Below are positions 2,873 through 64,000 of a DNA stretch of 64,000 bases, one piece after another. The stretch lies in the NCBI GenBank assembly GCA_038501625.1, contig JAZAYU010000012.1, positions 10,230,001 to 10,294,000 of the forward strand. The letters are read 5' to 3'. Each line of letters starts with the position of its first letter. Position 1 is the first letter of the stretch. The stretch comes from Corbicula japonica (lineage: Eukaryota; Mollusca; Bivalvia; Venerida; Cyrenidae). The position numbers were made by a program, and so were the translations under genes. Under the pieces are notes generated by a model. The model was not told the DNA's origin. It saw only the letters and a program-made list of their open reading frames with translations, and did no database searches.

Positions 2873-4214
2873 TAAGAGGGTCCATAGGACCCTGGGTCGC
2901 TCACCTGTCAACAACTGCTCAATGGTTGCAAGAGTTGTGCGCAAGTTTGGTAAAATCAAGTCAAAAATTTAAAAAAAATTAAGCTGCTATTGTGGAGAAA
3001 ATGTAACAAGATGATGCTCTATACCAAATATCTAAGCTCTAGGCCTTACGGTTTCAGAGAAGAAGATTTTTAACCCTTTCCTGGATATATACGCATTTTT
3101 ACGCGTGTGCGACCAGTGTAGATCCAGATCAGCCGGCACATCCGTGCCGTCTGATCAGGATCTGCACTGGTCTCATTTTGGTCAGAAATAACCTAATGAA
3201 TCAATAAGCGAACAGTTTAGATCCTGATCAGATGGCATGGATGTGCGGGCTGATCTGGATCTAAATTGTTTGCCCTGGCAATAAAGGTGTATCTGTACAG
3301 GAAAGGGTTAAAGATTAACTATATAACACTATGTAATAAAACTAGTGACCCCCGGGGCGGAGCCATTTTCGACCCCAGGAGAATAATTTGAACAACTTTT
3401 GTAGAGGACCACTACATGATGACACATACCAAATACCAAGGTTCTAGGCCTTGTGGTTTTAGAGAAGAAGTTTTTTTAAAGTTTTCCCTATATAAGTCTG
3501 TGTAAAATGAAGTGACCCCTGGGGCGGGGCCATTTTTGACCTCAGGGGGATAGTTTGAACAATTTTGGTAGAGGACCACTAGATGAAGCTGTATATCAAA
3601 TATTAAGGCTCTAGGCCTTGTGGTTTTAAAGAAGAAGATTTTCATGTTTTTCCTATATAACTATATGTAAACCAAGAAGACCCTAGGGCGTGGCTGATTT
3701 TGGCCCAGGGGACATAATTTGAACAAATTTAGTAGACATCCATTAGACAATGCTACTAACCAAATATCTAAGCTGTACGCATTGTGGTTTGTGAGAAGAA
3801 GATTTTTAAAGATTTCCTATATAAGTCTATGTAAAATGAAGTGATCCCTGGGGCCGGGCAAATTTCGACCCCAGGGAAATAATTTGAACAATCTTTGTAG
3901 AGTTCTACTAGAGGGTGCTAAATGCCAAATATCTAAGCTCTAGGCCTAGTGGTTTCAGAGAAGAAGATTTTTAAAGTTTTGCCTTTAGGTTGCCATGGCA
4001 ACCAGAGTTCTGCATGGAATTGATTTCTTTGAACAAATTTGGAAGAGCTTCATGCAAGGAACATCCGTGGCAAGTTTCATCAACTTTGGCCCAGGGGTTT
4101 AAGAGGAGATGTCGTTTAAAGTAAAAGTTTAAGGACGGACGCCGGACGGACGGACGGACGCCGGACAAATTGCGATCACAAAAGCTCACCTTGTCACTAC
4201 ATGACAGGTGAGCT
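2873..4214 (+). mobile_element. Composite (pearl/Helentron-like) element P1
   Basis: The head hairpin is GGGTCCATAGGACCC (2,878-2,892), followed by the arm GCTCACCTGTCA (2,899-2,910). The arm is the exact reverse complement of TGACAGGTGAGC at 4,202-4,213 in the tail hairpin. There are about four cores of ~166 bp (marked by GTGACCCC and AATAATTTGAACAA), then a GGACGGAC microsatellite near 4,133-4,165. A TTAA MITE (3,070-3,311) is inserted in the first core. Confidence 0.82.
3070..3311 (+). mobile_element. TTAA MITE copy 3 (intact, reference copy)
   Basis: The full element reads TTAA, CCCTTTCCTGGATATATACG, palindrome A (GACCAGTGTAGATCC...), spacer GGTCAGAAATAACCTAATGA, palindrome B (GAACAGTTTAGATCC...), GTGTATCTGTACAGGAAAGGG, TTAA. 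It is inserted in a core of element P1. The neighbouring unoccupied cores read AGAAGATTTTTAAAG, so the insertion duplicated TTAA. Confidence 0.9.
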
Positions 4215-4366
4215 AAAAATCAGTAATATAAATTAGAAGTGCCACCATTCAGAAAATGTAACGCTCTTCTGGGGCCTTAAAAAGGAATTTTATTTATGTA
4301 TCATACACTACAGAAAATATGGTAGTTGGTAGTTTGAATTTTTTTATAAATGTTTTTATTATCTAT

Positions 4367-4748
4367 TAATCATTTCCTCCATATACATAGGTTTTATCAT
4401 CTGTGCGACCAGTGTAGATCCAGATCAGTGGATTCAACCTTGCCATCTGATCTAAATCTTCAGAAATAATCCAATGAATCTTAAACCAAACAGTGTATAT
4501 AATTATCAACAACATGGATGTGCCAGCTGATCTGGATCTACCGGTACATTATTTGAATACAGTAGATTCTGATAAGCCTACAAATCTATGCCATCTGATC
4601 AGGATCTACACTTTACTTTTAGATTCATTAATTTATTTCTGATCAAGAAGGGAACAATGTAGATCCAGATCAGATGGCACAGATGTGCAGGCTGATCTGG
4701 ATCTACAATGTAGTGTGATAAAAGGTGTATCGGTAGTGTTAAGGGTTA
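4367..4748 (+). mobile_element. TTAA MITE copy 4 (expanded)
   Basis: Starts CATTTCCTCCATATACATAGG and ends AAGGGTTAA. It contains three palindromes rather than two, so it has gained a unit or is two overlapping copies. Confidence 0.7.
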
Positions 4749-5048
4749 AGGATACTAAAGCAACAGTGACTGTCAAAGTAAATCAAACATAAAACAAGAA
4801 ATTGAAGACACTTGTTTTATATAAAAAAATCAGCATCTTGAATAAAAACAAGTTCTTTGAGGGAAATGGGCAGAGGGGGATGGGGTGTGTGAGGAGGGTG
4901 GGTTCAAATCAAGAAAATCTATGAGATGAGATGCATTGAATCCCAAAACTAAACTGACGGTGGCAACAAAAAAAATAAAACTGAGGTCATCAGCTATTTT
5001 AAGGTTTCTGATAAAGCTCAATTTATTCATCTTAATTAATCAAATCTG

Positions 5049-5845
5049 GGCCATTACTCCACATATATGAGTTATTGCATGTATGACCAGTGTAGATTCA
5101 CATCAGTGCCACCTGAACTGAATCTACACTGGTCAATTCTTGGTCAGAAATAGCCTAATAAAGGAGTAGGTTCACGAAGGCCTAATATTGGCCTAAAAAT
5201 ATGTAAAATTTTAAATTTTGTTACAGATCGCAAATTTTAATGCCATTGAATACATAAATAGTTATACTTTTCATATCTTTAAATTTTATATTGATTACAT
5301 CTAAAGGAGTTTGACAAGGGGCCAGCAAAATTGCTAAAAATGAGGAAAATGTGCAAAAATTCATATTTTTGTCCATTTTCACAGCAGATTTTAAAGGATT
5401 TCGATAAGAGCACACTTCTCGACCAAAATCAAAATTTGACCATGAATTCAGCACACATTTATTCAAAGAAAATTCTTTAAATTATTTTGGTCGAAGCCTG
5501 TGCCCAATATGAAAATCATCAAAATATGATGAAAATTTAACAAAAAATTGTATTTTGGCAAACATTTTCAAATTTCAGACACATTTGACACACTTAATTT
5601 TTTATTTTGGCGTATGGGTTTGTCTTCACTTTTTATCTTTTTAAGAAAACAACAATAATAGATTATAAAAAGCACACTTTAAGTGATGTAAATGCAATTT
5701 GAAAATTTGAGATAATTTTAGGCCAATTTTGAGCCTTCGTGAATCTACCCCTTTAAAAGCACCCAGTGTCGATCCTGTCATCATACAGCGGATATGGATT
5801 TTACTGTTTGGGCATGGAATAACAGCCAAATCCCATGGAGAAATG
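5049..5845 (+). mobile_element. TTAA MITE copy 5, split by another element
   Basis: The left half ends in GTCAGAAATAGCCTAATA at 5,158. The right half (AGCACCCAGTGTCGATCCTG, then AACAGCCAAATCCCATGGAG) resumes at about 5,758. Between them is the inverted-repeat element 5,159-5,757. Confidence 0.7.
5159..5757. mobile_element. Inverted-repeat element nested in a TTAA MITE
   Basis: The left end AAGGAGTAGGTTCACGAAGG and the right end (reverse strand AAAGGGGTAGATTCACGAAG) form inverted repeats. Both are followed inward by GCCxxxATTxGGCCTAAAA-like sequence. It has no coding potential. The target duplication is unclear (A-rich). Confidence 0.7.
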
Positions 5846-6430
5846 GATTTAAAAAATCTCTGTTCTCAAAGAAATCTTGATGATTGTTAAAAATATCTGT
5901 TCTTATAAAACTGATTTAAAAGCACCGATTGACTTTTGATCATTTTTTCAATGATGACAAAATTAATAAAAGACTGCATTTTGATTGGTCAGACATACAG
6001 TTTTAACAATTTTATACTATTAACTTGGTGAAAATGAGTATTTTCATATATTTTCTGCTGTCTTTAATGAAAGCTGTCATTTAAGCAAAATTGTTACTCT
6101 TTTGTTGGTGACTCAGTATCTGTTGTAATGGTGTTTTGATAACCATGTTACAATTTGTGCATAACACATCCTATAATGTACAGAAAGTCAACAACAAACT
6201 AATACTAAAGTCGTTTATATGCAACTCCTCATGTAACAGAATATCACCCCTGTACTTGTATTGACAGTGAATATAATGCCCACATTCACAGTGAGGGAGG
6301 CTGTGACAGAACAAAGTTTATCCACCGTGGCTTCATGCAAAAAAATTAAGGTGGCATGCCGTCTCAAACAGTATACTGTGGTAACATTAAACTAAGTCAC
6401 TGAATTTTGTGAAGAATCAATCTCTTAATT
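5846..6430. other. Gene-free stretch, no feature recognised
   Basis: AT-rich flank or intron sequence between two TTAA MITEs. No ORF, hairpin or repeat unit stands out. Confidence 0.6.
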
Positions 6431-6661
6431 TTAACCTTTTACTCCTTTCATCACATTTGTGATCAGTGTAGATCCAGATCAGCTGGCACATCTGTGCTTT
6501 CAGATCTAAATCTACACAGGTCACATATTGTTCAGAAATACCCTAATGAATCTTGAAGCTAAAAGTGTATATCCTGATCAAACAACCCAGATGATTGCAG
6601 ATCTGGATCTAAACTGTTCACTCATGGGATAACAGCCGTATCCCATGGAGCAAAGGGTTAA
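6431..6661 (+). mobile_element. TTAA MITE copy 6
   Basis: TTAACCTTTTACTCC at the left and CAAAGGGTTAA at the right, with both palindromes present. It shares its right TTAA with copy 7. Confidence 0.8.
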
Positions 6662-6785
6662 CCTTTTACTCCATTGATACAACTTTTTTCTCACATCTGC
6701 GACCACTGTAGATTCAGCTTAGCCTGCACATCCATGCAGTTTGACCTTGATTTACATTGTTCACTTCTTGGTAAGAAATATTCTT
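6658..6785 (+). mobile_element. TTAA MITE copy 7 (left half)
   Basis: TTAACCTTTTACTCC and palindrome A, ending after GGTAAGAAATA. It is joined to copy 6 through one TTAA. Confidence 0.7.
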
Positions 6786-6991
6786 ATTGGAAAACAGACA
6801 TATTCTATGCAGTGAATTCACTTAGACTCAGCGATACTTTTCTTGCAACCGAATTCACATGAAAACAAGGTTTTAATTTCAAGCTCATGTTTGACCCCAC
6901 ACATGCAAAATATTAACTGATACAAATCAAAGTGACTGCACAATACGGCATCTACATCTGATAATTTCAAACGGATCTCTACCAAACTTAC

Positions 6992-7024
6992 GCTCTATTT
7001 CAGAAACTGTCTCCGATTCCGTTG
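6992..7024 (-). CDS. Probable 33-nt anoctamin mini-exon (residues 875-885)
   Basis: It follows the open codon of the previous exon (A|CA, Thr) and reads TTESETVSEIE, an acidic Ser/Thr-rich continuation. The acceptor has a good pyrimidine stretch (GTTTCCCC...ATTAG) and the donor is the consensus GTAAGT. It ends with one base of a codon, so at least one more exon is needed. I could not find it in 1-6,991. Confidence 0.5.
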
Positions 7025-7344
7025 CTAATATTATAGGGGAAACAAAATTATAGAATATTCAGTCATTTTATGTTTTCATATTTAAATAAAAACACAATAT
7101 TTTACAAAAGAGTATAACAAGAAGCACTGAAAGGGTGCAAAAAGTATAGATTGTAGTCAATTATACACTTGTATGATATATATGTACAAAATTTGTCCAT
7201 TGGAATATAAATACACTGTTTTAGTACTAAGGGGACAAATCATGTTAGCAATGACAATTGATGAAAAGGACTTTTTCTTTCAATCTACAAGCCAAGTAAC
7301 AAAAATAAAAATAAAAAGTTCATAAAAGGAATCATTCACTGTTA

Positions 7345-8455
7345 TGACTAAAATCATGTTTATGGATGGACTAAATAACCAAAATCATGTTCATGGACTG
7401 GATAAGAAACCAAAATCATGTTCATAGACTGAATAAATAACCAAAATCATGTTCATGGACTGGATAAGAAACCCAAATCATGTTCATAGACTGAATAAAT
7501 AACCAAAATCATGTTCGTGGACAGAATACATAATGGATCTAATACATATACTGAGCAAAAATGACAACTTGACAAATTAACATAGAAAAATCCTATTACA
7601 TGTACATTGATGATGCCAATAAATGCAAATATCTGGAGGTATTTGATCACTAATATGTTTATCTTGGAAGTTGTCCGTTCAGACTTATGTCAGTTAGAAA
7701 TACAGAAACAACTTATGTTGTGTTAGCAAATTAAAAGTTTGTTCTTTTTTTAATTTAAAGGGAGGTAGTTTGCAAAAACTTATATTTAAGTTTTTTAGTT
7801 CTTTGCACCAGTGAACTTTAATGACTGGGTTTTTCCTTCTGTACATGCCATCAACTTCTAAATTTGACTGTCAAAAATTCTGTTTGAGACCTATATGTTA
7901 AAAACATATCAACCTCATCATTATTTAGGCAAGAGGAGATAACCTTGACCTCTGTCAAAAAAATAACAATATATCTTCCTGCTTTATCAAATGTCCAAAT
8001 ATATGCAAATACCAAATTACATGAAGGACAAAATATAGCATTTAATTTAAGTTTTCATTTTTGCTCGGTATATGAGTCACCAAAATCATATTTGTAAACT
8101 GAAGACCAATATCATTTTTATGCAACAAAAAAAGTAACCAAATCATGTTCATGGATCAAATATGTAACCAAAATCATGTTCATGGACTGGATACTAACCA
8201 ATAACATGTTCATGGACTGAATACATAACCACTATCATGTTCATGGACCAAATATATAACCAATATCATTTTCATGGATAGAATATAATATATGTAACTA
8301 ATATCATGTTTATGGACTAAAAACATAACCAATATCATGTTCGTGGACAGAAAATGTAACCAAAATTTCATGTTCATGGACAGAATATATATCCAATATC
8401 ATGCTCATGGACTTAATACATAACCAATATCATGTTCATGGTCCGAATACATTTT
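7345..8455. repeat. Two blocks of a 33-36-bp minisatellite
   Basis: AACCAAAATCATGTTCATGG plus ACTGxATAxATA units at 7,345-7,545 and again at 8,090-8,455. The roughly 540 bp between has no recognisable unit and no gene. The ORF at 7,453-7,650 is an artefact. Confidence 0.88.
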
Positions 8456-8651
8456 TGTATAATTTGCATGATTTGGACAGAAGTATTGCATGAAAAAGCA
8501 CCAAAAACTTTCATCTAAGGCTACATCATGATGTCATATACCCAAACTTGAACCCATTTACTAAATGTTCTCATTGGGAATATTATGTGCATATGGGAAC
8601 CAACGTGAAAAATAAACATTGAAAAAAAATTGAAAAGATAATCCACAGTTT

Positions 8652-8884
8652 TTAACCTTTTTCAAATTTTGATATATACGCATTTTTACGTGTGTGCGAC
8701 CAGTGTAGATCCAGATCAGCCGGCACATCCATGCCGTCTGATCAGGATCTGTACTGGTCGCATTTTGGTCATAAATAACCTAATTAGTCAAATAGTGAAC
8801 AGTTTAGATCCAGGTCAGATGGCTGATCTGGATCTAAACTGTTTGCCCCAGCAATAAAGGTGTATCTATACAGGAAAGGGTTAA
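8652..8884 (+). mobile_element. TTAA MITE copy 8
   Basis: Full-length apart from a short deletion in palindrome B, ending GGAAAGGGTTAA. It interrupts a dispersed repeat whose related copy at 10,531-10,570 is unbroken (CCACTGTTTGAAAACAGTGA). Here the flanks are CCACAGTTTTAA and TTAAACAGTGA, consistent with a TTAA duplication. Confidence 0.85.
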
Positions 8885-13277: not shown

Positions 13278-13519
13278 TTAACCCTTTCCTGGAAAAATAC
13301 GCATTTTTACGTATGTGCGACCAGTGTAGATCCAGATCAGCCGGCACATCCGTGCCGTCTGATCAGGATCTGCACTGGTCGCATTTTGGTCAGAAATAAT
13401 CTAATGAATCAAAAAGCGAACAGTTTAGATCCTGATCAGAAGGCACGGATGTGCCGGCTGATCTGGATCTAAACTGTTCGCCCTAGCAATAAAGGTGTAT
13501 CTATACAGGAAAGGGTTAA
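13278..13519 (+). mobile_element. TTAA MITE copy 13
   Basis: Near-identical to copy 3: TTAACCCTTTCCTGGAAAAA to CAGGAAAGGGTTAA. It shares its right TTAA with the partial copy that follows. Confidence 0.9.
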
Positions 13520-15412: not shown

Positions 15413-17646
15413 CCTTATCCTTTATCTCCAAATATACACATTTTATCACATGTGCGAATATTCAATAGTATAGATTCAGATCAGCTGACACATCCGTGCC
15501 ATCTAATCAGGATCACATTGTTCACTTTTGGGTCAGAAATAATATAATAAAATAACAAGAGGGCCATGATGGCCCTATGTCGCTCACCTGAGTACAAAAG
15601 TACTCTCAGCTTGTGGTTTCAGACAAGAAGATTTTTAAAGTTTTTCCTATACAAGTCTATATAAAATGAAGTGACCCCTGGGGCAGGGCCAATTTTGACC
15701 CCTGGGAAATAATTTGAACAATCTTTGTAGAGTTCTACTAGAGGATGCTAAATGCCAAATATCTAAGCTCTAGGCCTTGTGGTTTCAGACAAGAAGATTT
15801 TTAAAGTTTTTCCTATATAAGTCTATGTAAAAAGAAGTGACCCCTGGGGCGGGGCAAATTTTGACCCCAGGGAAATAATTTGAACAAACTTTGTAGAGTT
15901 CCACTAGAGGATGCTAAATGCCAAATATCTCAGCTCTAGGCCTTGTGGTTTCAGACAAGAAGATTTTTAAAGTTTTTCCTATATAAGTCTATGTCAAATG
16001 AAGTGACCCCTGGGGCAGGGCCAATTTTGACCCCAGGGAAATAATTTGAACAAACTTTGTAGAGTACCACTAGAGGATGCTAAATGCCAAATATCTAAGC
16101 TCTAGGCCTTGTGGTTTCAGAGAAGAAGATTTTTAAAGTTTTTCTTATATAAGTCTATGCAAAATGAAGTGACCCCTGGGGCAGGGCCAATTTTGACCCC
16201 AGGGAAATAATTTGAACAAACTTTGTAGAGTACCATTAGAGGATGCTAAATGCCAAATATCTCAGCTCTAGGCCTTGTGGTTTCAGAGAAGAAGATTTTT
16301 AAAGTTTTTCCTATATAAGTCTATGCAAAATGAAGTGACCCCTGGGGCGGGGCCAATTTTGACCCCAGGGAAATAATTTGAACAATCTTTGTAGAGTTCC
16401 ACTAGAGGGTGCTAAATGCCAAATATCTAAGCTCTAGGCCTTGTGGTTTCAGACAAGAAGACTTTTAAAGTTTTTCTTAATATAGAAGTCTATGCAAAAT
16501 GAAGTGACCCCTGGGGCGGGGCAAATTTTGACCCCAGGGAAATAATTTGAACAAACTTTGTAGAGTTCCACTAGAGGATGCTAAATGCCAAATATCTCAG
16601 CTCTAGGCCTTGTGGTTTCAGACAAGAAGATTTTTAAAGTTTTTCCTATATAAGTCTATGTCAAATGAAGTGACCCCTGGGGCAGGGCCAATTTTGACCC
16701 CAGGGAAATAATTTGAACAATCTTTGTAGAGTTCCACTAGAGGGTGCTAAATGCCAAATATCTAAACTCTAGGCCTTGTGGTTTCAGACAAGAAGATTTT
16801 TAAAGTTTTTCTTATATAAGTCTATGCAAAATGAAGTGACCCCTGGGGCGGGGCCAATTTTGACCCCATGGAAATAATTTGAACAAACTTTGTAGAGTTC
16901 CACTAGAGGATGCTAAATGCCAAATATCTAAGCTCTAGGCCTTGTGGTTTCAGACAAGAAGACTTTTAAAGTTTTTCTTAATATAGAAGTCTATGCAAAA
17001 TGAAGTGACCCCTGGGGCGGGGCCAATTTTGACCCCATGGAAATAATTTGAACAAACTTTGTAGAGATCCACTAGAGAATGCTAAATGCCAAATATCTAA
17101 GCTCTAGGCCTTGTGGTTTCAGAGAAGAAGATTTTTAAAGTTTTTACTATATAAGTCTATGTAAAATGAAGTGACCCCTGGGGCGGGGCCAATTTTGACC
17201 CCAGGGCTATAATATGAACAATCTTGGTAGAGGACCACTAGGTGATGCTACACAACAAATATCAAAGTTCTAGGCCTTGCGGTTTCAGAGAAGAAGATTT
17301 TTAAAAATTTTATGTTCAAAATCTATTTTTTTCCTCTGTGACCTAGATAGGCAATGGACCGGAACCATTTGAACAATTTTGGTAAAGCTTCATGCAAGTA
17401 ACATTCCTGCCAAGTTTCAGCAAGATTGGCCCAGGAGTTCAGGAGAAGAAGTCGTTTGAAGAAAAAGTTGACGACGCACGGACGCATGCACGCACGCACG
17501 GACGACGGACGACGGACATCAGGCGATCACAAAAGCTCACCATGAGCACTTCGTGCTCAGGTGAGCTAAAAAGCTAATATGCTGCCTGATCCGGATCTAC
17601 AATGTTCACCCCGGCAACAACGCTGTATAAATGGAGTAAAGGGTAA
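15413..17646 (+). mobile_element. TTAA MITE copy 18, split by composite element P2
   Basis: The left half (to TCAGAAATAATATAATAAAA) ends at about 15,555. The right half (GCTGCCTGATCCGGATCTAC to GGAGTAAAGGGTAAA) resumes at about 17,576. The 2-kb element P2 sits between them. Confidence 0.72.
15556..17567 (+). mobile_element. Composite (pearl/Helentron-like) element P2
   Basis: Same family as P1. It starts AACAAGAG, with head hairpin GGGCCATGATGGCCC (15,561-15,575) and arm GCTCACCTGAG (15,582-15,592), the exact reverse complement of CTCAGGTGAGC at 17,556-17,566. It holds ten tandem cores with GTGACCCC at 15,671, 15,838, 16,003, 16,169, 16,335, 16,504, 16,670, 16,836, 17,005 and 17,171 (period 165-169). 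It ends in an ACGG-type microsatellite and a tail hairpin, and is inserted in a TTAA MITE. Confidence 0.87.
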
Positions 17647-28981: not shown

Positions 28982-29279
28982 ACAAGAGCCAGTCGGAAAC
29001 GACTGCACGCTCGACTATTCGAAAAGTCAGAATTATTAAGCACATTGTAACTGGGCTTCATTTAAACTGGGGAGTGATTCAGGAGTTTATGACACCCCCA
29101 ACAAACACACATGAACAAAAGTTTCTTAATCCAAGTTAGGAAATCAATAAATTACACTTAATTTATTCTTGTAGATTTTTTTTAGGGTTTACACAACCCA
29201 GCCCATAAACCCCTGATCCCACACCCATCAACCCACTATCTTTGCCCACCTATAGTGGTGTGGCGTGGTGAAGTACAGT

Positions 29280-30115
29280 ATGGTATGCTGTTTGCTGTTG
29301 TTGGTGGTGGTGTTGCTGTTGTTGGTGGTGGTGGTGTTGCTGTTGTTGGTGGTGGTGTTGTTGCTGTTGTTGGTGTTGTTGTTGGTGGTGGTGTTGTTGG
29401 TGTTGGTATTGTTGGTGTTGTTGTTGGTGGTGGTGGAAGTGTTGTTGCTGGTGGTGGTGGTGGTGGTGTTGGTTGTTGTTGTTGCTGTTGTTGGTGGTGG
29501 TGTTGATGTTGTTGGTGTTGTTGTTGGTGGGGGTGTTGCTGGTGGTGGTGGTGTTGTTGTTGGTGCTGGTGTTGATGTTGTTGGTGGTGTTGTTGTTGGT
29601 GTTGTTGTTGTTGGTAGTGGTGTTGTTGTTGTTGGTGGTGGTGTTGGTGGTGGTGATGATGTTGTTGTTGGTGGTGGTGGTGTTGTTGTTGGTGGTGTTG
29701 TTGTTGGTGGTGGTGTTGTTGTTTTTGGTGTTGGTGGTGGTGATGGTGTTATTGTTGTTAGTGGTGGTTTTGTTGATGGTGGTGGTGGTGTTGTTGTTGT
29801 TTGTGTTGTTGTTGGTGGTGGTGTTGATATTGTTGTTGGTGGTGGTGTTGGTGTTGTTGTTGGTGGTGTTGTTGTTGTTAATGGTGGTGCTGTAGTTGTT
29901 GTTGTTGGTGGTGTTGGTGTTGTTAATGGTGGTGTTGTTGTTGGTGGTGGTTGTGTTGTTGGTGGTGGTGATGGTGTTGTTGGTGGTGTTGTTGTTGTTA
30001 GTGGTGGTGTTGTTGGCGGTGTTGTTGTTGTTGTTGTTGGTGGTGGTGTTGTTGTTGTTTGTGTTGGTGTTGTTGTAGTTGTTGTTGGTGGTGTTGTTGG
30101 TATGTGCAGGTGGTG
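29280..30115. repeat. GGT/GTT trinucleotide microsatellite (about 0.84 kb)
   Basis: Almost pure alternation of GTT and GGT triplets, with a few GCT and GAT. Both strands are open for hundreds of codons, giving poly-Val/Leu/Gly on one and poly-Asn/Thr/His/Gln on the other. This is a consequence of the repeat, not evidence of genes. Confidence 0.95.
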
Positions 30116-30449: not shown

Positions 30450-31610
30450 TATACAAAGTTTTAAACCTTAATTTTTAAGTCTAAAAAGGGCAGTAATTTG
30501 AAAAAAATCAAAGAGTTATGGTTCTTGGCATACATAGTCAGGGTCATGATGGTGAATAAGTTTCAAAGCTATAGTACAAGAAGTATGAAAGTAACTAGCT
30601 TGCACGCAAACTTTAACCTGAAATTCTAAGTCGAAAAAGGGCCATAATTTGATTAAAAATGAAAGAAAGAGTTATAGTTCTTGGCATACATAGTCAGGGT
30701 CATGATGGTAAACAAGTGTCTTAAGTCTCAAAGCTATAGTACAAGAAGTATGAAAGTAACTAGCTTGCACGCAAACTTTAACCTGAAATTCTAAGTTGAA
30801 AAAGGGCCAAAATTTGATTAAAAATGAAAGAAAGAGTTATGGTTCTTGGTATAAATAGTCAGGGTCATGATGGTAAACAAGTGTCTTAAGTTTCAAAGCT
30901 GTAGTACAAGAAGTAAGAAAGTAACTAGCTTGCACGCAAACTTTAACCTGAAATTCTAAGTCGAAAAAGGGCCATAATTTGAACAAAATGGAAGTAAGAG
31001 TTATGGTTCTTAGCATACAATCTTGAAATATGATGATGAACAAGTGTTGAAAGTTTCAAAGCTGTAGTATAAGTAGTATGGAAGTTATGGGTTTGCACAG
31101 TAGCTTGCACGCAAACTTTAACCTGAAATTCTAAGTCGAAAAAGGGGCATAATTTGATAAAAATGAAAGTTAGAGTTATGGTTCTTGGCATACACACTTG
31201 GGATATGATGATGAACAAGTGTTGAAAGTTTCAAAGCTGTAGTATAAGTAGTATTGAAGTTATTAGTTTGTATAGTAGCTTGCACGCAAACTTTAACCTG
31301 AAATTCTAAGTCAAAAAAGGGCCATAATTTGATCAAAATGAAAGTCAGAGTTATGGTTCTTGGTATACACACTCGGGACATGATGATGAACAAGTGTGCC
31401 AAGTTTAAAAGCTGTAGTGTAAGTAGTATTGAAGTTATGAGTTTGTACAGTAGCTTGCACGCAAACTTTAACCTGAAATTCTAAGTCAAAAAGGGCCATA
31501 ATTTGATCAAAATGAAAGTTAGAGTTATGGTTCTTGGCATACACACTCGGGACATGATGACGAACAAGTGTGCCAAGTTTAAAAGCTGTAGCTATAGTAG
31601 TTTTTAAGAT
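30450..31610 (+). repeat. Tandem core array of element P7
   Basis: Repeats marked by TTGCACGCAAACTTTAACC and AAAAAGGGCCATAATTTGA. Markers at 30,600, 30,769, 30,930, 31,109, 31,279 and 31,456 give spacings of roughly 160-180 bp. Copies diverge gradually and end in GCCGACGCC at 31,655. Short minus-strand ORFs across it are repeat artefacts. Confidence 0.9.
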
Positions 31611-31708
31611 ATAGGTAGGTTGCACATAAACTTTAACCAAAGCGGGACGCCAACGCCGACGCCCAAGTGAGTACAATCGCTCGACATATTCTTCGAATAG
31701 TCGAGCTA

Positions 31709-37616: not shown

Positions 37617-37858
37617 TTAACCCATTCCTGTACAGACACACCTTTATTTCTAGGGCGAACAGTTTAGATCCAGATCAGCCGGCACAGCCGTGCCGTCTGA
37701 TCAGGATCTAAACTGTTCGCTTTTTGATTCATTAGGTTATTTGTGACCAAAATGCGACCAGTGCAGATCCTGATCAGACGGCATGGATGTGCCGGCTGAT
37801 CTGGATCTACACTGGTCGCACATGCGTAAAAATGCGTATATATCCAGGAATGGGTTAA
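37617..37858 (-). mobile_element. TTAA MITE copy 27 (intact)
   Basis: TTAACCCATTCCTGTACAGA to ATCCAGGAATGGGTTAA, with both palindromes nearly perfect. The TIRs share a C-to-T change with its complement (CCCATTCC / GGAATGGG), a matched difference from the usual CCCTTTCC. Its right-hand neighbour on the left is exon 37,540-37,576. Confidence 0.9.
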
Positions 37859-41400: not shown

Positions 41401-42396
41401 AACTAGATGTTTTTTGTGAAAAACGCATGTTTCCCCCCTGCGCCGCCCCCCCCCCTGCACCCAGACCCCTGTGACCTTGACCTTTGACCTACTGATCCCA
41501 TAATCAATAGGGTTCTTCTACTCAATAAGGGCTATCACCCTATGAAGTTTGAAGGCTCTGGGTCAAAGGGTACTGAATTTATTGAGCGGAAACGGTTTTC
41601 ACTCTTCGGGTCACTGTGACCTTGACCTTTGACCTACTGACTCCAAAATCAATAGGGTTCTTCTACTCAATAAGGGCTGTCATCCTTTGAATTTTTGAAG
41701 GCTCTGGGTCAAAAGGTACTTGAGTTATTGAGCGGAAACGGTTTTCCCTCTTTGGGTCACTGTGACCTTGACCTTTGACCTACTGACCCCAAAATCAATA
41801 GGGTTCTTCTACTCAATAAGGGCTATCACCCTATGAAGTTTGGAGGCTCTGGGTCAAAGGGTACTCAAGTTATTGAGCGGTAACGGTTTTCATTCTTTGG
41901 GTCACTGTGACCTTGACCTTTGACCTACTGACCCCAAAATCAATAGGGTTCTTCTACACAATAAGGGCTATCATCATATGAAGTTTGAAGGCTCTGGGTC
42001 AAAGGGTACTCGAGTTATTGAGCCGAAACGGTTTTCACTCTTCAGGTCACTGTGACCTTGACTTTTGACCTACTGACCCCAAAATCAATAGGGTTCTTCT
42101 ACTCAATAAGGGCTATCACCCTATGAAGTTTGGAGGCTCTGGGTCAAAGGGTACTCGAGTTATTGAGCGGAAATGGTTTTCACTCTTTGGGTCACTGTGA
42201 CCTTGACCTTTGACCTACTGACCCCAAAATCAATAGGGTTCTTCTACTCAATAAGGGCTATCACCCTATGAAGTTTGAAGGCTCTGGGCCAAAGGGTACT
42301 CGAGTTATTGAGGGGAAACGAAGTGTGACAGACGGAGTGACGGACAGACGGACAGGGCAAAAACAATATGTCTCTCCCAGAGGGGGGGGAGACATA
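41401..42396 (+). mobile_element. Composite element P3 with 145-bp cores carrying nuclear-receptor-like sites
   Basis: It starts AACTAGATG, with head hairpin GTTTTTTGTGAAAAAC and arm ATGTTTCCCCCC (41,427-41,438), matching the tail GGGGGGAGACAT (to 42,395) with one mismatch. Six cores at 41,471, 41,616, 41,762, 41,907, 42,052 and 42,197 (period 145) each begin GTGACCTTGACCTTTGACCT, one with a single change. A GACGGAC microsatellite precedes the tail hairpin. Confidence 0.85.
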
Positions 42397-46500: not shown

Positions 46501-47896
46501 CAAGAGTGCCAAACTGACACAAAATACGCCCGTCAAAATGCTGATCATCAAAGTTGCGTAACGATCCGATGAAAATTATTGAACTTGGAGAGCAGATACC
46601 GCTAATTCAGTTTTTGGACAATTCAAGGGCCATAATTCAGGAGTGCCTGGGGGGATTCGGCAGGTTATAGAACTTGGTCGAGATATTATGCCCACCAACA
46701 TATTCACCAAGTTTGATAAAGACCCGATGAAAACTCTTTGACTTAGAGAGCGGAAACAGTAATTTTAGACAATTCAAGGGCAATAATTCAGGAGTGCCTG
46801 GGGGGATTTTACTGGTTATAGAATTTGGTCGAGATATTATTCCCACCAACATATTCATCAAGTTTGATAAAGACCGGAAGAAAACTCTTTGACTTAGAGA
46901 GCGCAAACCCTTATTTTGGTCAATTCAAGGGCCATAATTCAGGAGTGCATGGGGGGATTTGATTGGTTATAGAACTTGGTCGAGATATTATGTCCACCAA
47001 CATATTCACCAAGTTTGATAAAGACCCGATGAAAACTCTTTGACTTAGAGAGCGGAAACAGTAATTTTGGACAATTCAAGGGCCATAATTCAGGAGTGCC
47101 TGGGGGGATTTGGCTGGTTATAGAACTTGGTCGAGATATTATGTCCACCAACATATTCACCAAGTTAGATAAAGACCGGATGAAAACTCTTTGACTTAGA
47201 GAGCGGAAACAGTAATTTTGGACAATTCAAGGGCCATAATTCAGGAGTGCCTGGGGGGATTTGGCTGGTTATAGAACTTGGTCGAGATATTATGTCCACC
47301 AACATATTCACCAAGTTTGATGAAGACCGGATGAAAACTCTTTGACTTAGAGAGCGGAAACAGTAATTTTGGACAATTCAAGGGCCATAATTCAGGAGTG
47401 CCTGGGGGGATTTGGCTGGTTATAGAACTTGGTCGAGATATTATGCCCACCAACATATTCACCAAGTTTGATAAAGACCGGATGAAAACTCTTTGACTTA
47501 GAGTGTGGAAACAGTAATTTTCGACAATTCAAGGGCCATAATTCAGGAGTGCCTGGGGGGATTTGGCTGGTTATAGAACTTGGTCGAGATATTATGCCCA
47601 CCAACATATTCACCAAGTTTGATAAAGACCAGATGAAAACTCTTTGACTTAGAGAGCAGAAACAGTAATTTTGGACAATTCAAGGGCTATAATTCAGGAG
47701 TGCCTGGGGGGATTTGGCTGGTTATAGAACTTGGTCGAGATATTATGCCCACCAACATATTCACCAAGTTTGATAAAGATCGGATGAAAACTCTTTGACT
47801 TAGAGAGCGGAAACCATGTGGACGCCGCCTGCCCGCCCGCCCGCCCACCCACCAAAGGTGTTCCCATAATACGTCCCGTTTTTCAAGTGGGCATAT
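46501..47896 (+). mobile_element. Composite element P4 with 151-bp cores
   Basis: It starts ACAAGAG, with head hairpin GTGCCAAACTGACAC (46,506-46,520) and arm ATACGCCC matching the tail GGGCATAT (7 of 8). Eight or nine cores of 151 bp contain GGGCCATAATTCAGGAGTGC and GGTCGAGATATTATG. A CCGCCCGC-type microsatellite follows at 47,822-47,856. Repeated minus-strand 74-residue ORFs here are artefacts of the cores. Confidence 0.85.
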
Positions 47897-53677: not shown

Positions 53678-54923
53678 CTAGAATTATCACTGAAAGTGAT
53701 TAAATACCCCAACATGTGTGCTTGATAATTGAACTGGGAATGCTTCGAATCAATGGCATAATGTGCCCCAAAGTGTCGTCTTCACAGTAGCCACATATTC
53801 AGCAAGTTTCATCACAATATCTCATTCCTTCTAAAGTTATTGAGCAGAAATGGTTTGAGTATGTTAGTAACCTTTAGTGACCTTTACCTAACTTTTAACA
53901 ACTGTGTGCCAAAAATTGTTTATATATGTGAAGCTTTTCATGAGAAATCATCCAGAAACATTTTTTCTATTTTTAGTAACAGTGAACAGTGACCTTGACC
54001 CCATCAGGCCCAATTTCAATACAAAGTTTCGTCTTCACAGACACTACCTATATATCAATTTTCATCACAATATCTCATTCTGAACCAAAGTTATTGAGCA
54101 ACAGTTTTTTTCTATTTTTAGTAACAGTGACCTTGACCCCACAGGCCTTACTTTGAATCCCAAAAGGCATCTTCACAAAAACCACCAATACACCAAATTT
54201 CATTTAAAAATCTCATTCCAAGCTTTAGTTACTGAGTGGAAACAAAGTTTTGAAGTTTAAATAACAGTGACCTTGACCTTGAACCCACAGGCCCCAAAGT
54301 CAAACCTAACCTATATCTTGTTATGTTACATCTGCGACCCAAAAAATATTTAAATCTATGAAGTATTTCATGAGTTATAGTCCAGAAACAAATTTTCTTT
54401 TTTAAGTTACAGTGACCTTGAAATTGACCCCACAGGCCCCAAAGTCGAGCTCGACCTTATCTTCAGATATTACATCTACATGTATATACCAAAAAAGTAT
54501 TTAATCTGTGAAGTGTTTCATGAGTTATCATCCAGAAACCATTTTTCTATTTTTAGTAATACTGACCTTGACATTGACCCCACCAGCCCCAAAGTCGAAC
54601 TTGACCTGTATCTTGTGATGTTACATCTATTTACCAAACAAGGATTAAATCTGTGAAGTGTTTCATGAGTTATCATCCGGAAACCATTTTTCTATTTTTA
54701 GTAACAGTGACCTTGACACTGACCCCACCAGCCCCAAAATCGAACTTGACCTGTATCTTATGACGATATACCTGTGTACCAAAAATTATTTAATTCTGTC
54801 AAGCCTTTCATGAGTTATCATCCGGAAACGAAGAATCCGACCGACCGACCGACAGACAGACCGACAGACCGACCGACAAGCTCACTCCTATATACCCCCT
54901 CAAACTTCGTTTGTGGGGGTATA
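53678..54923 (+). mobile_element. Composite element P5
   Basis: It starts AACTAGA, with head hairpin ATCACTGAAAGTGAT (53,686-53,700) and arm ATACCCC, which pairs with the tail GGGGTAT (to 54,923). Degenerate cores carry AACAGTGACCTTGACC and TTTCATGAGTTATCATCC. A GACCGACCGACC/GACAGACA microsatellite (54,837-54,882) precedes a hairpin with arms TATACCCCC and GGGGGTATA. Confidence 0.8.
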
Positions 54924-57593: not shown

Positions 57594-57834
57594 TTAACCC
57601 TTTCTTCCAGACATACCTTTATTGCACCGCCAAATAGTGTAGATCCAGATCAGCCAGCACATCTGAGCGGTTTGATCAGGATCTAAAGTGTTCTCTTTTT
57701 TATTAATTAGGTTATTTCTGACCAAAATGCAACCAGTGCAGATCCTGATCAGACAGCACAGATGTGCCAGCTGATCTGGATCTACAATGGTCGCACATGT
57801 GTAAAAATGTGTATATATGGAGGAAAGGGTTTAA
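57594..57834 (-). mobile_element. TTAA MITE copy 32
   Basis: TTAACCCTTTCTTCCAGACA to TATGGAGGAAAGGGTTTAA, both palindromes present. It lies about 87 bp outside exon 57,407-57,507. Confidence 0.88.
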
Positions 57835-58269: not shown

Positions 58270-58461
58270 TTAACCCTTTCCTCCATAGACATGGGAGAAT
58301 AGTGTAGATCCAGATCAGCCGACACATCTGCACTGTTTGCTTTTTTGATTTGTTAGGTTATTTCTGACCAAAATGCGACAAAGGAGATGGATGTGCCAGC
58401 TGATCTGGATCAACACTGGTCACACATGCATAAAAATGCGTATATATGGAGGAAAGGGTTT
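58270..58461 (-). mobile_element. TTAA MITE copy 33 (shortened)
   Basis: TTAACCCTTTCCTCCATAGA to TATGGAGGAAAGGGTTT. Parts of both palindromes are deleted. Confidence 0.82.
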
Positions 58462-59342
58462 ATTCAGTTGCTTTAAAATGCAAAATCTGGGTTTATAAAA
58501 TTTCAGTTTATTCCTCTGAAATGGATAATAATCAATGTCGTCTGCTACACTTTTTGACCTCAAAGTATGACGTCAACTTCCCAACGATACATTTTAGCAT
58601 GCTGTGGTTAATGAATAGATATAATAGTTATCACCACGGTGGTAATAAATTACTGGACCATTATTGTTTAAGTTGAACATGGTAAATCAATTAAATAAAC
58701 ATTTTAATTCACAGTAACTTTCAAAAGAATCGAACGGAATTGTGGCTGTACTCAAGAAAAGAAACCAGCACTCAAAGTTTGTTTCTTTTAAAATTTATTT
58801 TATTCATTTAGTTTATTAGTAATATGGCAAGCTTTAAAAAAATGAATGTTTCTTGTTGCTCTAACAAGAATCAGCTTTTCTTCTTAAATTTGAATATGAA
58901 AAAGGGGCATCAATGTGGCAAAATACCGTCAAGTTATGAAACTTGTCCTGATAATTGGTATTGTGATGTCAGACAAATATTTTAAGTTTCAAAGCTCTAC
59001 CTTGAATGGTTACTGAGAAAAAGTGACTTTAAACAAAAAACTTAATGAAATGTTGATGCACGCCTGAAAAAAAGAAAATTTGGTTAAGAATGAATTGGGC
59101 TAAATTTGATATGCTGGTTTGGCAACTGCAAACAAATATTTTGTTAAGGATGGCCTAAATTGCAGAATCAGGTGACACATCATTCTTTTTAAATACAGGC
59201 CCTAGTTGAAATAACATTAAACACATCAAAGAATCTACTGGTTCAGCTTAGTTCTATTGCAAATGAATTAATCAATGCCTGCTATTATAGAACCTTCCAG
59301 GACATAGATATCCGGAGAAACTTCGAACAAAACGTCAAATAC
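58462..59342. other. Intron sequence with weak composite-core similarity
   Basis: AT-rich. The segment near 58,905-59,030 (AAAAAGGGGCATCAATGTGG, AAGTTTCAAAGCTCTA) resembles a single decayed P7 core. No gene. Confidence 0.5.
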
Positions 59343-59418
59343 CTTCATTGTCTGTTTCTAGGTGATTTTCAATGAACTCTGTTATACAGTTGGTTCTCTC
59401 CTGGGGATATTTCTCACA
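59343..59418 (-). CDS. Anoctamin exon, N-terminal domain (residues 1-26 of visible part)
   Basis: First visible exon. It reads CEKYPQERTNCITEF, then a short acidic stretch, in the cytosolic N-terminal (dimerisation) domain of anoctamins. The acceptor is TTTTCAG and the donor GTATTTG. It starts in phase 0 and ends with one base of a codon completed by the next exon (G|TG, Val). Upstream exons with the initiator Met must exist. I searched 59,419-64,000 by eye and saw no convincing candidate. Confidence 0.8.
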
Positions 59419-60084
59419 CTGAAAATAATAAAACGGATAATTTGTTCAACTTCAGATAATATTAACTGGGTTAGTACTAATCAATATAAAATCACCATTG
59501 CAGGTCAAGAAAGTATGCTCCTCATATGAATTTTTTGTAGAAAAGTTGCAGTACAGAAATCTTAAAAACACATTAACGTAATGTCTGTTTTTAATTTTTT
59601 GTATTTATTACCCTGAAGCAGGTGGAAACCAAAACGTCAGTGAAATACATAAAATTGAAAATTTTAATCGTGTTTGGTATTGTCTTTACTTCTTTTTAGT
59701 ACAGAAGTATTGACAGAAATGTAGGAATTTGTCAACTATGTTACACGAAAGCTGTTGAAAACGAATTGCATTTTCTTCTTGTATGTCCTTTTTATAAAGA
59801 ACTTTAAATGTACTTGTTTACCAAAGCATTTTTTTACATAGCTGATGATTAAAAAACTTAAAGGAACAGAAATCAATGTATGTTCAATAAGGCAAATATA
59901 TTTTTCAAGTGTATTAGAAAAGAGACAACTGTTTCTAAACATATGTTAAATTTCTGGTATATGAATTTACACAGATTATGAGGTTTATAAGGTATATACT
60001 GAGTGACTCATTATCTGAGTACAATTATTTGATCTGTGATATATGTCTTACATTTTTGTTTAAACATTCATTCATTATATAAGG
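59419..60084. other. Upstream intron sequence, no exon recognised
   Basis: The missing first anoctamin exons would be expected at or beyond this point. I could not find an exon with a phase-0 donor here. The minus-strand ORF at 59,736-59,942 has no known motif. Confidence 0.5.
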
Positions 60085-60560
60085 CAATCAATCACTAGTT
60101 TGCAGGTCATGTGAGCTAATTATAAAACTTAGCAGTCACTGGTTCTCAGCTCATGTGAGCTAATTATAAAACTTAGCAGTCACTGGTTCTCAGCTCATGT
60201 GAGCTAAAAGTTATACATGGCAATCACTGGTTCTCAGCTTATGTGAGCTAAAAGTTATACATGGCAATAACTGGTTCTCAGCTCATGTGAGCTAAAAGTT
60301 ATACATGGCAATCACTGGTTCTCAGCTCATGAGAGCTAAAAGTCAAAATTGGCAATCACTAGTTCTCAGCTCATGTGAGCTAAAAATACAAAATGGCAAT
60401 CACTGGTTCTCAGCTCATGTGAGCTAAAAATACAAAATGGCGATCACTGGTTCACAGCTCATGTGAGCTAAAAATACAAAATGGCAATCACTGGTTCTCA
60501 GCTCATGTGAGCTAAAAATACAAAATGGCAATCACTGGTTCTCAGCTTGTATGCTAAAAG
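60085..60560 (+). repeat. About 44-bp minisatellite with palindromic core
   Basis: Around eleven units of AGCTCATGTGAGCTAAAA, then xxxACAAAATGGCAATCACT and GGTTCTC. The AGCTCATGTGAGCT core is self-complementary, so each unit can form a small hairpin. Confidence 0.9.
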
Positions 60561-60716
60561 AAAAACAGTTCCCATGGATATATGGGATATGAAAGAAAGA
60601 AAATGTAAACTTGTTGTTAAGTTATCAACTGAAGAAGGCCAATACCGAAAAGTTTTGAAGTGAAAGAGTTTATATAGATCTATTAATATGATTCATTATC
60701 CCTACATGGATACAAA

Positions 60717-60765
60717 CAAGAGCTGTCAGAGGAGACAGCATGCTCGACTATTCGAATCATTTGAA
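60717..60765 (+). mobile_element. Head fragment of the P7 composite family
   Basis: CAAGAG, a hairpin GCTGTCAGAGGAGACAGC, then GCTCGACTATTCGAA, the same 15-base arm as P7 although the hairpin sequence differs. No core array or tail was seen after it. Confidence 0.65.
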
Positions 60766-60887
60766 ACAAATGCAATTTGAAGATTAAAACAATAACAACT
60801 ATGGCCATACATTCATGTGCAATCAGGAAAAATATTAACAAGTGAATGGTAAGGGAGAAATTCATTTCAAATAACAGAAATAATTCC

Positions 60888-61141
60888 TTAAGGCCAGAGA
60901 AAATAAATTATTAGATTCTCATCCGGATTTTGGGGGAAAAAAGGGGCGGGTGGGCACTTTTTAATTTTTATTTTTTATTAACGAAATACCTTAAGAAGGT
61001 ATTTCGGGACGGCCTAAAACCCGTTCTGTACGGAACAGAATATGTTTCGATTTTTTTTACCAATAAATTTTTTGGGGGCGGGTGGTTTTGGACAGTGACT
61101 GGCAGGGATGAGAATCTAAAATATTTTTTTCTCTGGCCTAA
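60888..61141. mobile_element. 254-bp MITE with TTAAGGCCAGAGA ends
   Basis: Left TTAAGGCCAGAGAAAATAAA and right (reverse) TTAGGCCAGAGAAAAAAATA, both then TTAGATTCTCATCC. An internal palindrome AAATACCTTAAGAAGGTATTT-like core and CCGTTCTGTACGGAACAG occur. The right half is homologous to 110-240. Confidence 0.85.
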
Positions 61142-61193
61142 TGTACCATAAATATTAAACTGAATAGGGGAATAACTATGAAATATTTCTGAA

Positions 61194-62701
61194 TGGGGGC
61201 CTACCGATATCCAGAGTTACCTCCCATTGAGAGTGGCTTCCCTTGCTGATTGGGTAGTTCCGGTATAGAAGCGGTAATAAAGCGTAGCGTAAAAAGTGTA
61301 GATAAAAAGTTTCAAAGTGCTTTTTAAGTTAAAATGCATTGTCAAATTAACAAATAAGTGAAACAGGCATATAAAGAATAACCATCATCTTGTAAAGTGA
61401 TTTTAAGTTAATAACTACCGTAAATGCATCTTTACCTAGGCTATTTACGTAACTGCACATATCCTTTATGAAAATTTATTTATTGGCTGGCATCAAAATT
61501 TTAGCTTTTTAAAACGTTCACTTAAGTATTCAGCCAATCACCGTTAAGTCATGCAAACAATACTTATTAAGAAAAGGGCCTGGTGTTTTATGATCATGTT
61601 ACGTAATCTAATTAGCAAGACTGGGTTTTACCAGCTGGAGGTGTGATAAAGGCCTTTTGAAGTTTAGTTGTAGATTTGTAAGAGATCAAAAACATTGCTT
61701 GTTGGGGGTAAAAGTGTTGTTTTAGGAAAGTGACTTGAGATTAAATATTCTAATTAATTGTCACACTGTTGTTTAAGAACCGAGACATTCATTATTTGAT
61801 ATTTGCAACTCAAAGCGCTCCCATCTGAATTTAATAAAATAGCATTCGGGAAAGTTTTACCCAAACATATATAAACTTTATTAAATTAATTAAAATTGAT
61901 TGTAAAACTAAATTAAATTTAAAAAAATGAACGTGAAAACATTACGAAACCATGTTTGAATATATTCTAAATTGTATAAGAATAAGAAAGAAACTTTCGG
62001 ACAAAGACCTATATCATACATTTATATATATAGGTCTCTGCTTTTGGAGAATAAATTGCAGTATATTGAAAAATACGTTAATACGAACATGACACAAATC
62101 TATGAACCGAATGGTGTGAATTTAATTTGTAGGAAAAGGTTCAGTTATAAAAATAATCTTAGACTATTAAATTCCTGGCCAAAAATGTTGCATGGACATG
62201 AAAGAACATGTATAAAAGTGAACGGGCATGTCATTGGCGGAAGTCAAACTTTATTTTACATCATGTGTTATAAATTGTACTAGTCTACCTTTTTTCGTTA
62301 ACGGTTTCTTACTTTTCTTTCCCTCAAATCTGCCATTTTTGAGCATAAGAAATGCGTATTTTTACTCTTTATTACCGAAGGGGTCAAACATAACGATGTC
62401 AAACACATACCTCGCAAACGTATAAAAATGCGTAACCTAGAAAATTTAAATATTATGCGCTGCACTATAAAACTATCTATTTTTTCCATTCAATGATGAT
62501 AATCAAACGTTTTTATGCATAATGCTGATCTCTGACCAACCAGGCCCTATTAAAACGTATTTGAAAGGACCACAGATGACTACTGCATGTCTGTTTTAAT
62601 GTCAGTCTCAGACCGGAACTACCCAGTGACAGGTGCGCGTTACAAAGGGAGGTAACTTAGGACAGAATATTGAGATAACTATGTATATCGGTAGGACCCC
62701 A
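61194..62701. mobile_element. 1.5-kb inverted-repeat element with long TIRs
   Basis: Left TGGGGGCCTACCGATAT, GTTACCTCCC, GGGTAGTTCCGG and right (reverse) TGGGGTCCTACCGATAT, GTTACCTCCC, GGGTAGTTCCGG, in the same order over about 75-90 bp. A plus-strand ORF of 103 codons (61,972-62,283) lies inside. I recognise no family for it and give it no function. Confidence 0.72.
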
Positions 62702-62881
62702 TTTGTTAGAAAACTTGTTAGTTATTTTTTATTAGAGACATTTACTTTAAGTCAAATATCAATCACTTCAGTAATGTTACAGAAAAAGAACCGAAATGAA
62801 AATATAATGGAAGTTTGAAGTTGATAACTTAAGTATTTGTAAAGTTATCGATGAAGTGCACTTGAGTGAAAATATAAGTGA

Positions 62882-64000
62882 AACTAGAAATGTGTCTATA
62901 GGACACAGATGCCCCCGCTATGCATCGTTTTCAGACACTCAAGTGCAATGATGGGAATAATAGCATTTCAAAGACAGTGATGTTCGAGTAATTTTAAAAA
63001 TATGCATAAACTTGAAGATAAAGTAAATTATTTGAATTTGTTGCACTGTTGTCTTCTCATTACGGAAATGTCTGTGAAGAAGTTGAAGGTAATGCAATGC
63101 AATGTCATAATGAACATTTGTGCCAAGTTATTTTGAAATCCCTTCATTCATAAAGAAGTTATAGCCTGAACAAGTAAATTCAAGTTTTAGTAACTGTGAC
63201 CTTGACCTTGGACTTACAGACATGGGTAATGTATGCAACACCGCCTTGTCATGGTGAACATTTGTGCCAAGTTATTTTGAAAACCCTCCATTCAAAACAA
63301 AGTTATAGCCTGGACAGGAAAATTCTATTTTTAGTAACAGCGACCTTGACCTTGGACCTACAGGCATGGACATGGTACATGACTCACCACCTTGTCATGG
63401 TGAACATTTCTGCCAAGTTATTTTGAAATTACTCTATTCCTAACATAGTTACAACCCTGACAAGAAAATTCTATTTTAGTAACAGTGACCTTGACCTTGG
63501 ACCTACAGGCATGGTCATGGTATGGGACACACCACCTTGTCATGATGAACATTTGTGTCAAGTTATTTTGAAATCACTCTATTCCTAACAAAGTTACAGC
63601 CCGGACAATTATTACTTTTAGTTACAGTGACCTTGAACTACAGGCATGGGCATGGTACGCGATACACCGCCCTGTCATGGTGAACATTTGTGTCAAGTTA
63701 TTTTGAAATCCCTCCATTTATAATGAAGTTACAGCCCGGACAAGAAAATTCTATTTTTAGTAAGAGTGACCTTGACCTTGGACCTTCAGGCTTGGGTATT
63801 GTGCGGACACACTGCCTTGTCATAGTGAACATTTGTGCAAAGTAATTTTGAAATCCCTCCATTCATAACAAAGTAACAGCCCGGACAAGAGAATTCTATT
63901 TTAAGTAACAGTGACCTTGACCTTTGACCTACAGGCATGTCATGGTTCAAGTTATTTTGAAATCCCTCCATTCATAACAAAGTTACACCCTGGACAAGAA
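62882..64000 (+). mobile_element. Composite element P6, cut by the window end
   Basis: It starts AACTAGA, with head hairpin GTGTCTATAGGACAC (62,892-62,906), then AGATGCCCCC. Cores of roughly 140-150 bp carry GTGACCTTGACCTTGGACCT, GTCATGGTGAACATTTGTG and AAGTTATTTTGAAATCCCT. If the layout holds, the tail outside the window should contain GGGGGCATCT. Confidence 0.75.

Follow-up and report, generated by a model that had tools for sequence, protein, structure and literature searches.

A 64,000-nucleotide stretch of the genome of the bivalve Corbicula japonica (GCA_038501625.1, contig JAZAYU010000012.1, positions 10,230,001–10,294,000 of the forward strand; hereafter the window) holds several composite repeats, P1 to P8. 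The question it raises is what these repeats are and why the sequences at their two ends match. An earlier note on this sequence had given P1 to P7 a common layout (a hairpin, a short arm, tandem cores, a microsatellite and a tail hairpin) and had proposed that the arms at the two ends pair and change together, a feature that it thought might be undescribed. Direct reading of the sequence confirmed the layout. Because the repeats match, part by part, the published descriptions of Helentron-associated elements (HINEs) and of the oyster elements Cg_HINE, and because of the empty sites described below, we identify P1–P3, P5, P7 and P8 as HINEs, which are non-autonomous members of the Helentron/Helitron2 branch of rolling-circle transposons. 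The least certain is P4, probably a decayed HINE; P6 represents a fossil 3' end contained in P8. Taken together, we consider this assignment very probable, and the note was right to see one Helentron-associated architecture with arms paired at both ends. What looks new, in the copies examined, is an imperfect 5' hairpin set against a usually perfect 3' palindrome. Elements of the Helentron type spread satellite-like repeats in animal genomes.

Element anatomy and orientation

All of the composite repeats share a single orientation and, read directly from the sequence, their element strand is the minus strand. On this strand the order is a T-run, the 5' subterminal inverted repeat (subTIR) and a complementary inverted repeat (IR) that together form the 5' hairpin, a microsatellite, tandem cores, the 3' subTIR, a palindrome and a terminal TCTWGTT (TCTTATT in P1). 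The start motif and head hairpin of the earlier note are the 3' end under the HINE convention and its tail hairpin is the 5' end, so its orientation was inverted; without an open reading frame, however, the naming of 5' and 3' is arbitrary (Yang and Barbash, 2008; PMC2374699). We keep head for the 3' end and tail for the 5' end.

In P1 (2871–4218) the T-run with GCTCACCTGTCA, the 5' subTIR, is followed on the minus strand by its imperfect complement, a GTCC-type microsatellite, the tandem cores, TGACAGGTGAGC as the 3' subTIR, the palindrome and a final CTCTTATT. Its 5' hairpin, with a single unpaired base, lies at 4184–4213, the central repeats of about 165 bp at 3308–3980, the 3' subTIR (the joint arm of the earlier note) at 2899–2910 and the 3' palindrome (its head hairpin) at 2877–2893; an unrelated palindromic repeat is enclosed at about 3110–3300. 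The other elements are laid out likewise on the minus strand: P2 (15554–17571; subTIR 15582–15592, cores 15610–17305, 5' hairpin 17535–17566), for which an empty site is available; P7 (28981–31706; subTIR 29009–29023, cores 30596–31612, 5' hairpin 31679–31706); P3 (41401–42395; subTIR 41428–41439 with one mismatch, cores 41469–42320, 5' hairpin 42368–42395); and P5 (53676–54923; subTIR 53704–53714, matching at 10 of 11, cores 53985–54829, 5' hairpin 54891–54923 with a T.T mismatch). P4 (46499–47894) is degenerate, with an arm at 46523–46531, cores at 46612–47814 and a tail at about 47864–47894. On the element strand the microsatellites are GTCC- or GTCG-like, and that of P4 is GGGC-like. End sequences of these families are GCTCACCTG, GCTCGACTATTCGAA, ATGTCTCCCCC and TATACCCCC.

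As in HINEs, the subTIRs are about 11–15 bp long, with the 5' copy near the 5' end and the 3' copy upstream of the 3' palindrome, an IR complementary to the 5' subTIR makes the 5' hairpin (weak in P4), and tandem repeats occupy the center together with a short microsatellite. The 3' ends are CTAG- or CTTG-like before TT. Canonical Helitron1 (5'-TC, CTRR-3', insertion between A and T, no 5' hairpin) was rejected, given the 5' hairpin and the T-run target. The AACWAGA start proposed in the earlier note is a weak signal alone. Five of the 6 AACTAGA sites and 5 of the 22 AACAAGA sites are followed by a hairpin, compared to 858 of 3945 permuted-motif sites. AACWAGAG occurs 6 times in the window where 4.5 matches are expected, and P1 starts with AATAAGAG, which differs from the motif. 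The scan of motif-flanking hairpins found none at the P4 head.

Pairing of the terminal arms

The arm pairs given in the earlier note are correct to the letter. They are perfect in P1 (12 of 12), P2 (11 of 11) and P7 (15 of 15), and imperfect in P3 (11 of 12) and P4 (7 of 8), to which we add P5 with 10 of 11 (ATACCCCAACA/ATACCCCCACA). When the head of each family was shuffled 2000 times, the true pair was equalled by no shuffle in P1 and P7, by 2 in P2, and by 68, 424 and 1811 in P5, P3 and P4. The pairing is clearly beyond chance in P1, P2 and P7; taken by themselves, the pairs of P3–P5 do not convince. A head-by-tail matrix gave own-pair scores of 12 (P1), 11 (P2), 15 (P7), 9 (P3), 5 (P4) and 8 (P5), compared to 4–7 between unlike families and 9 for the cross-pair of the related P1 and P2. 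Thus the own tail was the best partner of the head arm in 5 of 6 families; this was clear (11–15) in P1, P2 and P7, and P4 was not distinct.

Copies across the genome

Pattern searches covered the 1.07 Gb assembly, with about the first 100 matches per pattern listed. There were 1236 matches to P1/P2-type 3' ends (heads), 4520 to P1/P2-type 5' hairpins (tails) and 3807 to P7/P8-type 3' ends, and the reversed-pattern controls gave 0 in each case. On contig C1 each listed head was paired by coordinate with the nearest listed tail. Nineteen of the 21 listed heads were used, two lying beyond the last listed tail, and one of the 19 was dropped for want of a listed tail within 6.5 kb, which left 18 pairs, two of them about 5 kb apart and possibly wrong matches. 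A limitation of this method is that the first 7 arm bases in tails and the first 8 in heads were set by the search patterns and, therefore, the test of covariation informs on the later bases only. Fifteen of the 18 pairs share 11–12 nt of arm, 13 with GCTCACCTGAG and 2 with GCTCACCTGTCA, in line with the claim that the arms change together. The remaining three share just 8, 9 or 10 nt.

The claim does not extend to heads that end in TGATTC, in which the head arm has changed and the tail arm has not. These make up 8 of the 100 heads among the matches listed and form an amplified subfamily that pairs over 9 nt. Four have a visible tail, one among the C1 pairs and three in the five stretches fetched (the other two of which show no tail), and all four tails are of the TGTCA type. 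Since 9 nt of pairing sufficed for this subfamily to multiply, the inner arm is free to differ and the covariation of head and tail is not strict.

Beyond this assembly, two element patterns gave 0 matches in a viral contig collection. Three matches in a general genome contig collection fell in bacterial gene-like sequence and were dropped as chance, and the other pattern searched there gave 0. De novo family detection in 341 kb returned 60 inverted candidates and 264 in a direct-repeat control, which makes it useless as a detector; among known elements it recovered the P1, P7 and P8 types.

An irregular 5' hairpin and a mostly perfect 3' palindrome

In P1, P2 and P7 the IR carries an extra base after the seventh stem base (GCTCACC-T-TGTCA, GCTCACC-A-TGAG and GCTCGAC-A-TATTC, respectively), which the distant subTIR copy is without. 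P3 and P4 are alike but less certain, each with a T, which in P3 can be read as a bulge or a mismatch and can be closed by a wobble pair on the plus strand. P5 has a T.T mismatch and P8 a two-base mismatch. Seven outer bases were fixed in both halves of the tail pattern, with a spacer of 4–34 bases of any sequence between them, so perfect stems could match and irregularities within the outer seven bases could not. Among the 100 P1/P2-type tails listed, 94 leave just a single base unpaired, at one position on the IR side, and the other 6 have different changes at or adjoining that position or in the facing arm; none has a perfect hairpin with ten uninterrupted pairs. The first inner base of the listed tails is A before TGAGC in 38, T or C before TGTCA in 23 each, C before TGAGC in 13 and something else in 3. 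None of the 12 distinct P7/P8 tails fetched is perfect: 9 are of a CCC type and 3 have an extra A, one of them with a further change (6 of 19 fetched P7/P8 stretches had no exact-arm tail).

Because the listed copies are related, they do not amount to 100 separate events. Only families count as independent, and of these P3–P5 are represented by single window copies and P7/P8 by the 12 distinct tails, the window P7 and one further P8 copy (L012). Bulged hairpins are not rare as such. A scan of the plus strand found 10 with a 5'-side bulge, 7 with a 3'-side bulge, 23 with both and 21 with none and, therefore, only the position of the bulge within element ends is informative.

The 3' palindrome lies beyond the 3' subTIR, as in HINEs. 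Its stem is perfect over at least 6 pairs in 90 of the 100 P1/P2-type heads among the matches listed, the search pattern having fixed its GGG and CCC. P7 and P8 have a common 15-nt subTIR and different palindromes (CAGTCG..CGACTG and GCTGTC..GACAGC, respectively). The main texts of five key papers do not use the word bulge, though a figure could show one, and in the literature searched no paper speaks of both Helentrons and a bulge.

Target sites

HINEs insert into T-rich or TT targets without a target site duplication, and this was found at the empty sites of P2 and of a P8 copy elsewhere in the genome (L030). In both, the joined flanks match paralogous sequence that has no interruption; the alignment passes through an A-run (on the element strand, a T-run), and nothing outside this run is duplicated. 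The P2 alignment extends only 11 bases past the junction. A third empty site (L029) agrees less cleanly. For P1, P3–P5, P7 and the other copies, no junction-spanning match was present in the sequence compared. Elsewhere, on contig C1 (5358192–5358280), 12 nt separate a HINE tail from the HINE head that follows it, and the two have the same orientation; one copy may have inserted into the A-run of an older one.

A fossil 3' end within a composite element

The earlier note treated P6 as an element of its own and predicted a GGGGGCATCT tail after position 64,000. We did not find GGGGCATC on the plus strand through 5.0 kb past the window end, because the P6 head (62882–62916, minus strand) sits within a larger element, P8, whose 3' end at 60715–60756 had gone unnoticed. 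P8 runs on the minus strand from 60715 past the window end to about 65,021, with its 3' palindrome at 60722–60739. A P6-type array of 145-bp units (63103–63946) continues into a P8-type 166-bp array beyond the window, which closes with the P8 5' hairpin at 64,994–65,021 in window numbering. The real outer ends, 60,742–60,756 (the 3' subTIR) and the tail outside the window, pair at 15 of 15. The missing P6 tail and the changed head arm of the TGATTC subfamily are both outcomes that the earlier note had said would refute its reading, and each occurred in part.

Nine P8 copies with both ends were fetched. The P6-type array is present in eight of them and the P6 head in five, where it lies about 409 nt inward of the P8 head. 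In the window copy the distance between the two heads is 2,167 nt. This copy is collinear with four of the others (L023, L024, L025 and L030) at 95–100% identity, save for two interruptions of about 250 bases (60,892–61,139) and about 1.5 kb (61,195–62,700), which, absent there from those four copies, are likely to be later insertions. The collinearity identifies P6 as a fossil 3' end in an amplified composite, with no independent element in this copy, and shows how a composite element, read in one window only, can be taken for a free-standing element. Contig C1 holds a further composite at 3422033–3429700, which has two 3' ends to one 5' end: a P7-type 3' end lies within a P8 element in which one P8-type tail was seen.

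Comparison with known systems

The closest likeness is to Cg_HINE of the Pacific oyster (Vojvoda Zeljko et al., 2020; PMC7492417), in which the 5' subTIR, IR and microsatellite are on the left and the 3' subTIR and palindrome on the right. Shared with it are subTIRs of 11–12 bp, a complementary IR, a GTCY, GTCC or GTCK microsatellite in several elements, cores mostly of 140–180 bp, a T-rich target with no duplication, element-specific changes in subTIR, IR and stems, the lack of an assigned autonomous partner and, in some such as Cg_HINE_10_13 and 11_12, two arrays. The likeness is one of description rather than sequence; a fossil 3' end like that inside P8, and a bulge or unpaired base, go unmentioned in the sections of that paper available to us. 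The bivalve elements pearl (cores of about 160 bp), DTC84 and MgE are named HINEs or have a like architecture, again by description (PMC7492417).

Helitron2 has the same layout, also compared by description, with one asymmetric terminal inverted repeat (ATIR) within the 5' hairpin and the other ahead of the 3' hairpin (Bao and Jurka, 2013; PMC3627910); a bulge is not mentioned in the main text. These authors observed compensatory mutations between two related Culex elements and proposed that the 5' hairpin is destroyed when the 5' and 3' ATIRs pair, which would determine where replication ends. Earlier, the 3' stem had been seen to differ among species in a way that suggests compensatory mutations, and it may be a terminator (Yang and Barbash, 2008). 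Elements have been assigned to one family when their subTIRs are identical over at least 11 bp (Thomas et al., 2014; PMC4067079). Like HINE-Mo, DINE-1 and Helentrons, the elements described here combine subTIRs, a TT target, central repeats, a microsatellite and a 3' stem-loop with compensatory changes (PMC4067079, PMC2374699), whereas the subTIRs of the mite HINE are themselves palindromic (PMC4067079). The P5 subTIR (TATACCCC...) by eye resembles the TATACCC/ATACCC subTIRs of Drosophila and those of the other families do not. Since subTIR or ATIR pairing with compensatory changes is published (PMC2374699, PMC3627910, PMC4067079, PMC7492417), the supposedly undescribed feature was already described.

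Proposed mechanism and alternative explanations

By analogy with related systems, a Rep-helicase supplied in trans would recognize subTIR-containing DNA at both ends, nick in the T-run and copy one strand, and the 3' palindrome would be the stop signal, much as the 3' hairpin of Helraiser works as a terminator (PMC4778049). The two subTIRs would match because both are part of one recognition module inherited per family. Several observations weigh against placing the repeats among HINEs: the arm pairs of P3–P5 are short or degenerate, the inner arm is dispensable, judging by the 9-nt subfamily, and the search for an autonomous partner with the same ends, suggested in the earlier note, came up empty. 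The genome has 104 Helitron_like_N (PF14214) places, and no exact subTIR piece was present within ±1.5 kb of 30 of these 104, nor was there an end-like structure in the 8 kb downstream of two Reps, whose stretches have 99.9% identical counterparts at two more Reps. Two pairs of 8-kb stretches that adjoin Rep genes on different contigs (L062/L063 and L064/L065) are 99.86–99.98% identical over their full length and are very recent copies, large elements or duplicated assembly segments.

That these repeats are ordinary miniature inverted-repeat transposable elements or satellite arrays, with inverted repeats that arose by chance, is very improbable. It would suit the arm pairs of P3–P5, which alone are within or near chance, and the lack of enrichment of AACWAGAG, but it is difficult to reconcile with asymmetric ends, thousands of fixed-end matches that vanish in the reversed controls and empty sites without duplication. 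A different account accepts the elements as HINEs and explains the matching arms by pairing between the ends of one strand, in which the 5' subTIR would pair with the 3' subTIR, open the imperfect 5' hairpin and mark the end of replication, selection on this pairing driving the covariation. The model has been stated for Helitron2 (PMC3627910), the long-range pairs of P1, P2 and P7 are perfect over 11–15 nt while the hairpin that each of these arms forms locally has an interruption, and the TGAG and TGTCA arm classes are concordant at both ends in 15 of the 18 paired copies. Even so we think it unlikely as the cause of the covariation: TGATTC heads with TGTCA tails have amplified on 9 nt, agreement within a subfamily is largely shared descent and the data are also accounted for by a double-strand binding site that occurs at each end.

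The irregular 5' hairpin suggests a recognition mark, since some HUH single-strand transposases need such irregularities. The hairpins of IS200/IS605 and REP recognized by HUH TnpA are imperfect, with unpaired or mismatched bases in mid-stem; in IS608, ISDra2 and Escherichia coli REP the protein contacts the irregularities, and a regular stem eliminates activity in E. coli REP (PMC8266576). These systems are bacterial and use a different transposase, so the parallel with HINEs is one of function and not of membership. By this parallel the irregularity may help the protein to tell the start, and the start strand, from the end. A fuller version, which we hold as tentative and somewhat doubtful, is that it would be a strand- and end-specific mark for a eukaryotic HUH Rep, comparable to the extrahelical base of IS608 and E. 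coli REP, and would also weaken the hairpin so that perfect pairing of the 5' and 3' subTIRs displaces it. It is quite possible, if a little short of an even chance, that the irregularity has no function and was inherited from a few founders, the 100 listed tails being a handful of subfamilies. Nor is it needed in all such elements, given the perfect 5' stem of FoHeli1 of Fusarium (PMC5148889), which means that the irregularity is not universal in the wider group, and the perfect palindromes of IS200, IS1451 and group-3 REP (PMC8266576). Yet the unpaired base varies by subfamily (A, T or C) and is not lost, the differing ends of P3, P4, P5, P7 and P8 are likewise irregular in mid-stem and, among relatives, 90 of the 100 listed heads have a perfect 3' palindrome. 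We found no experiments on how a Helentron Rep distinguishes the two ends in the sections of the Helentron literature available to us. The comparison separates what is known, the paired subTIRs, from a clue, the imperfect 5' hairpin opposite a mostly perfect 3' palindrome.

Other features of the window

The P7 interior contains a TTG/TGG-rich array of about 800 bp (29292–30099), with long open frames in several frames that are probably spurious. A palindromic interspersed repeat (GATCAGACGGCAC... type) is present in many copies (397–435, 3127–3156, 8714–8743, 13335–13364, 37673–37702 and others); it is the insertion site of two HINEs (P2 and the copy L029), and one copy is the repeat enclosed by P1. 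At 60089–60547 there is a 44-bp tandem array with AGCTCATGTGAGCTAAAAATAAAAAATGG in its unit, which resembles the 5' end of P1/P2 HINEs and is possibly a HINE end turned tandem repeat.

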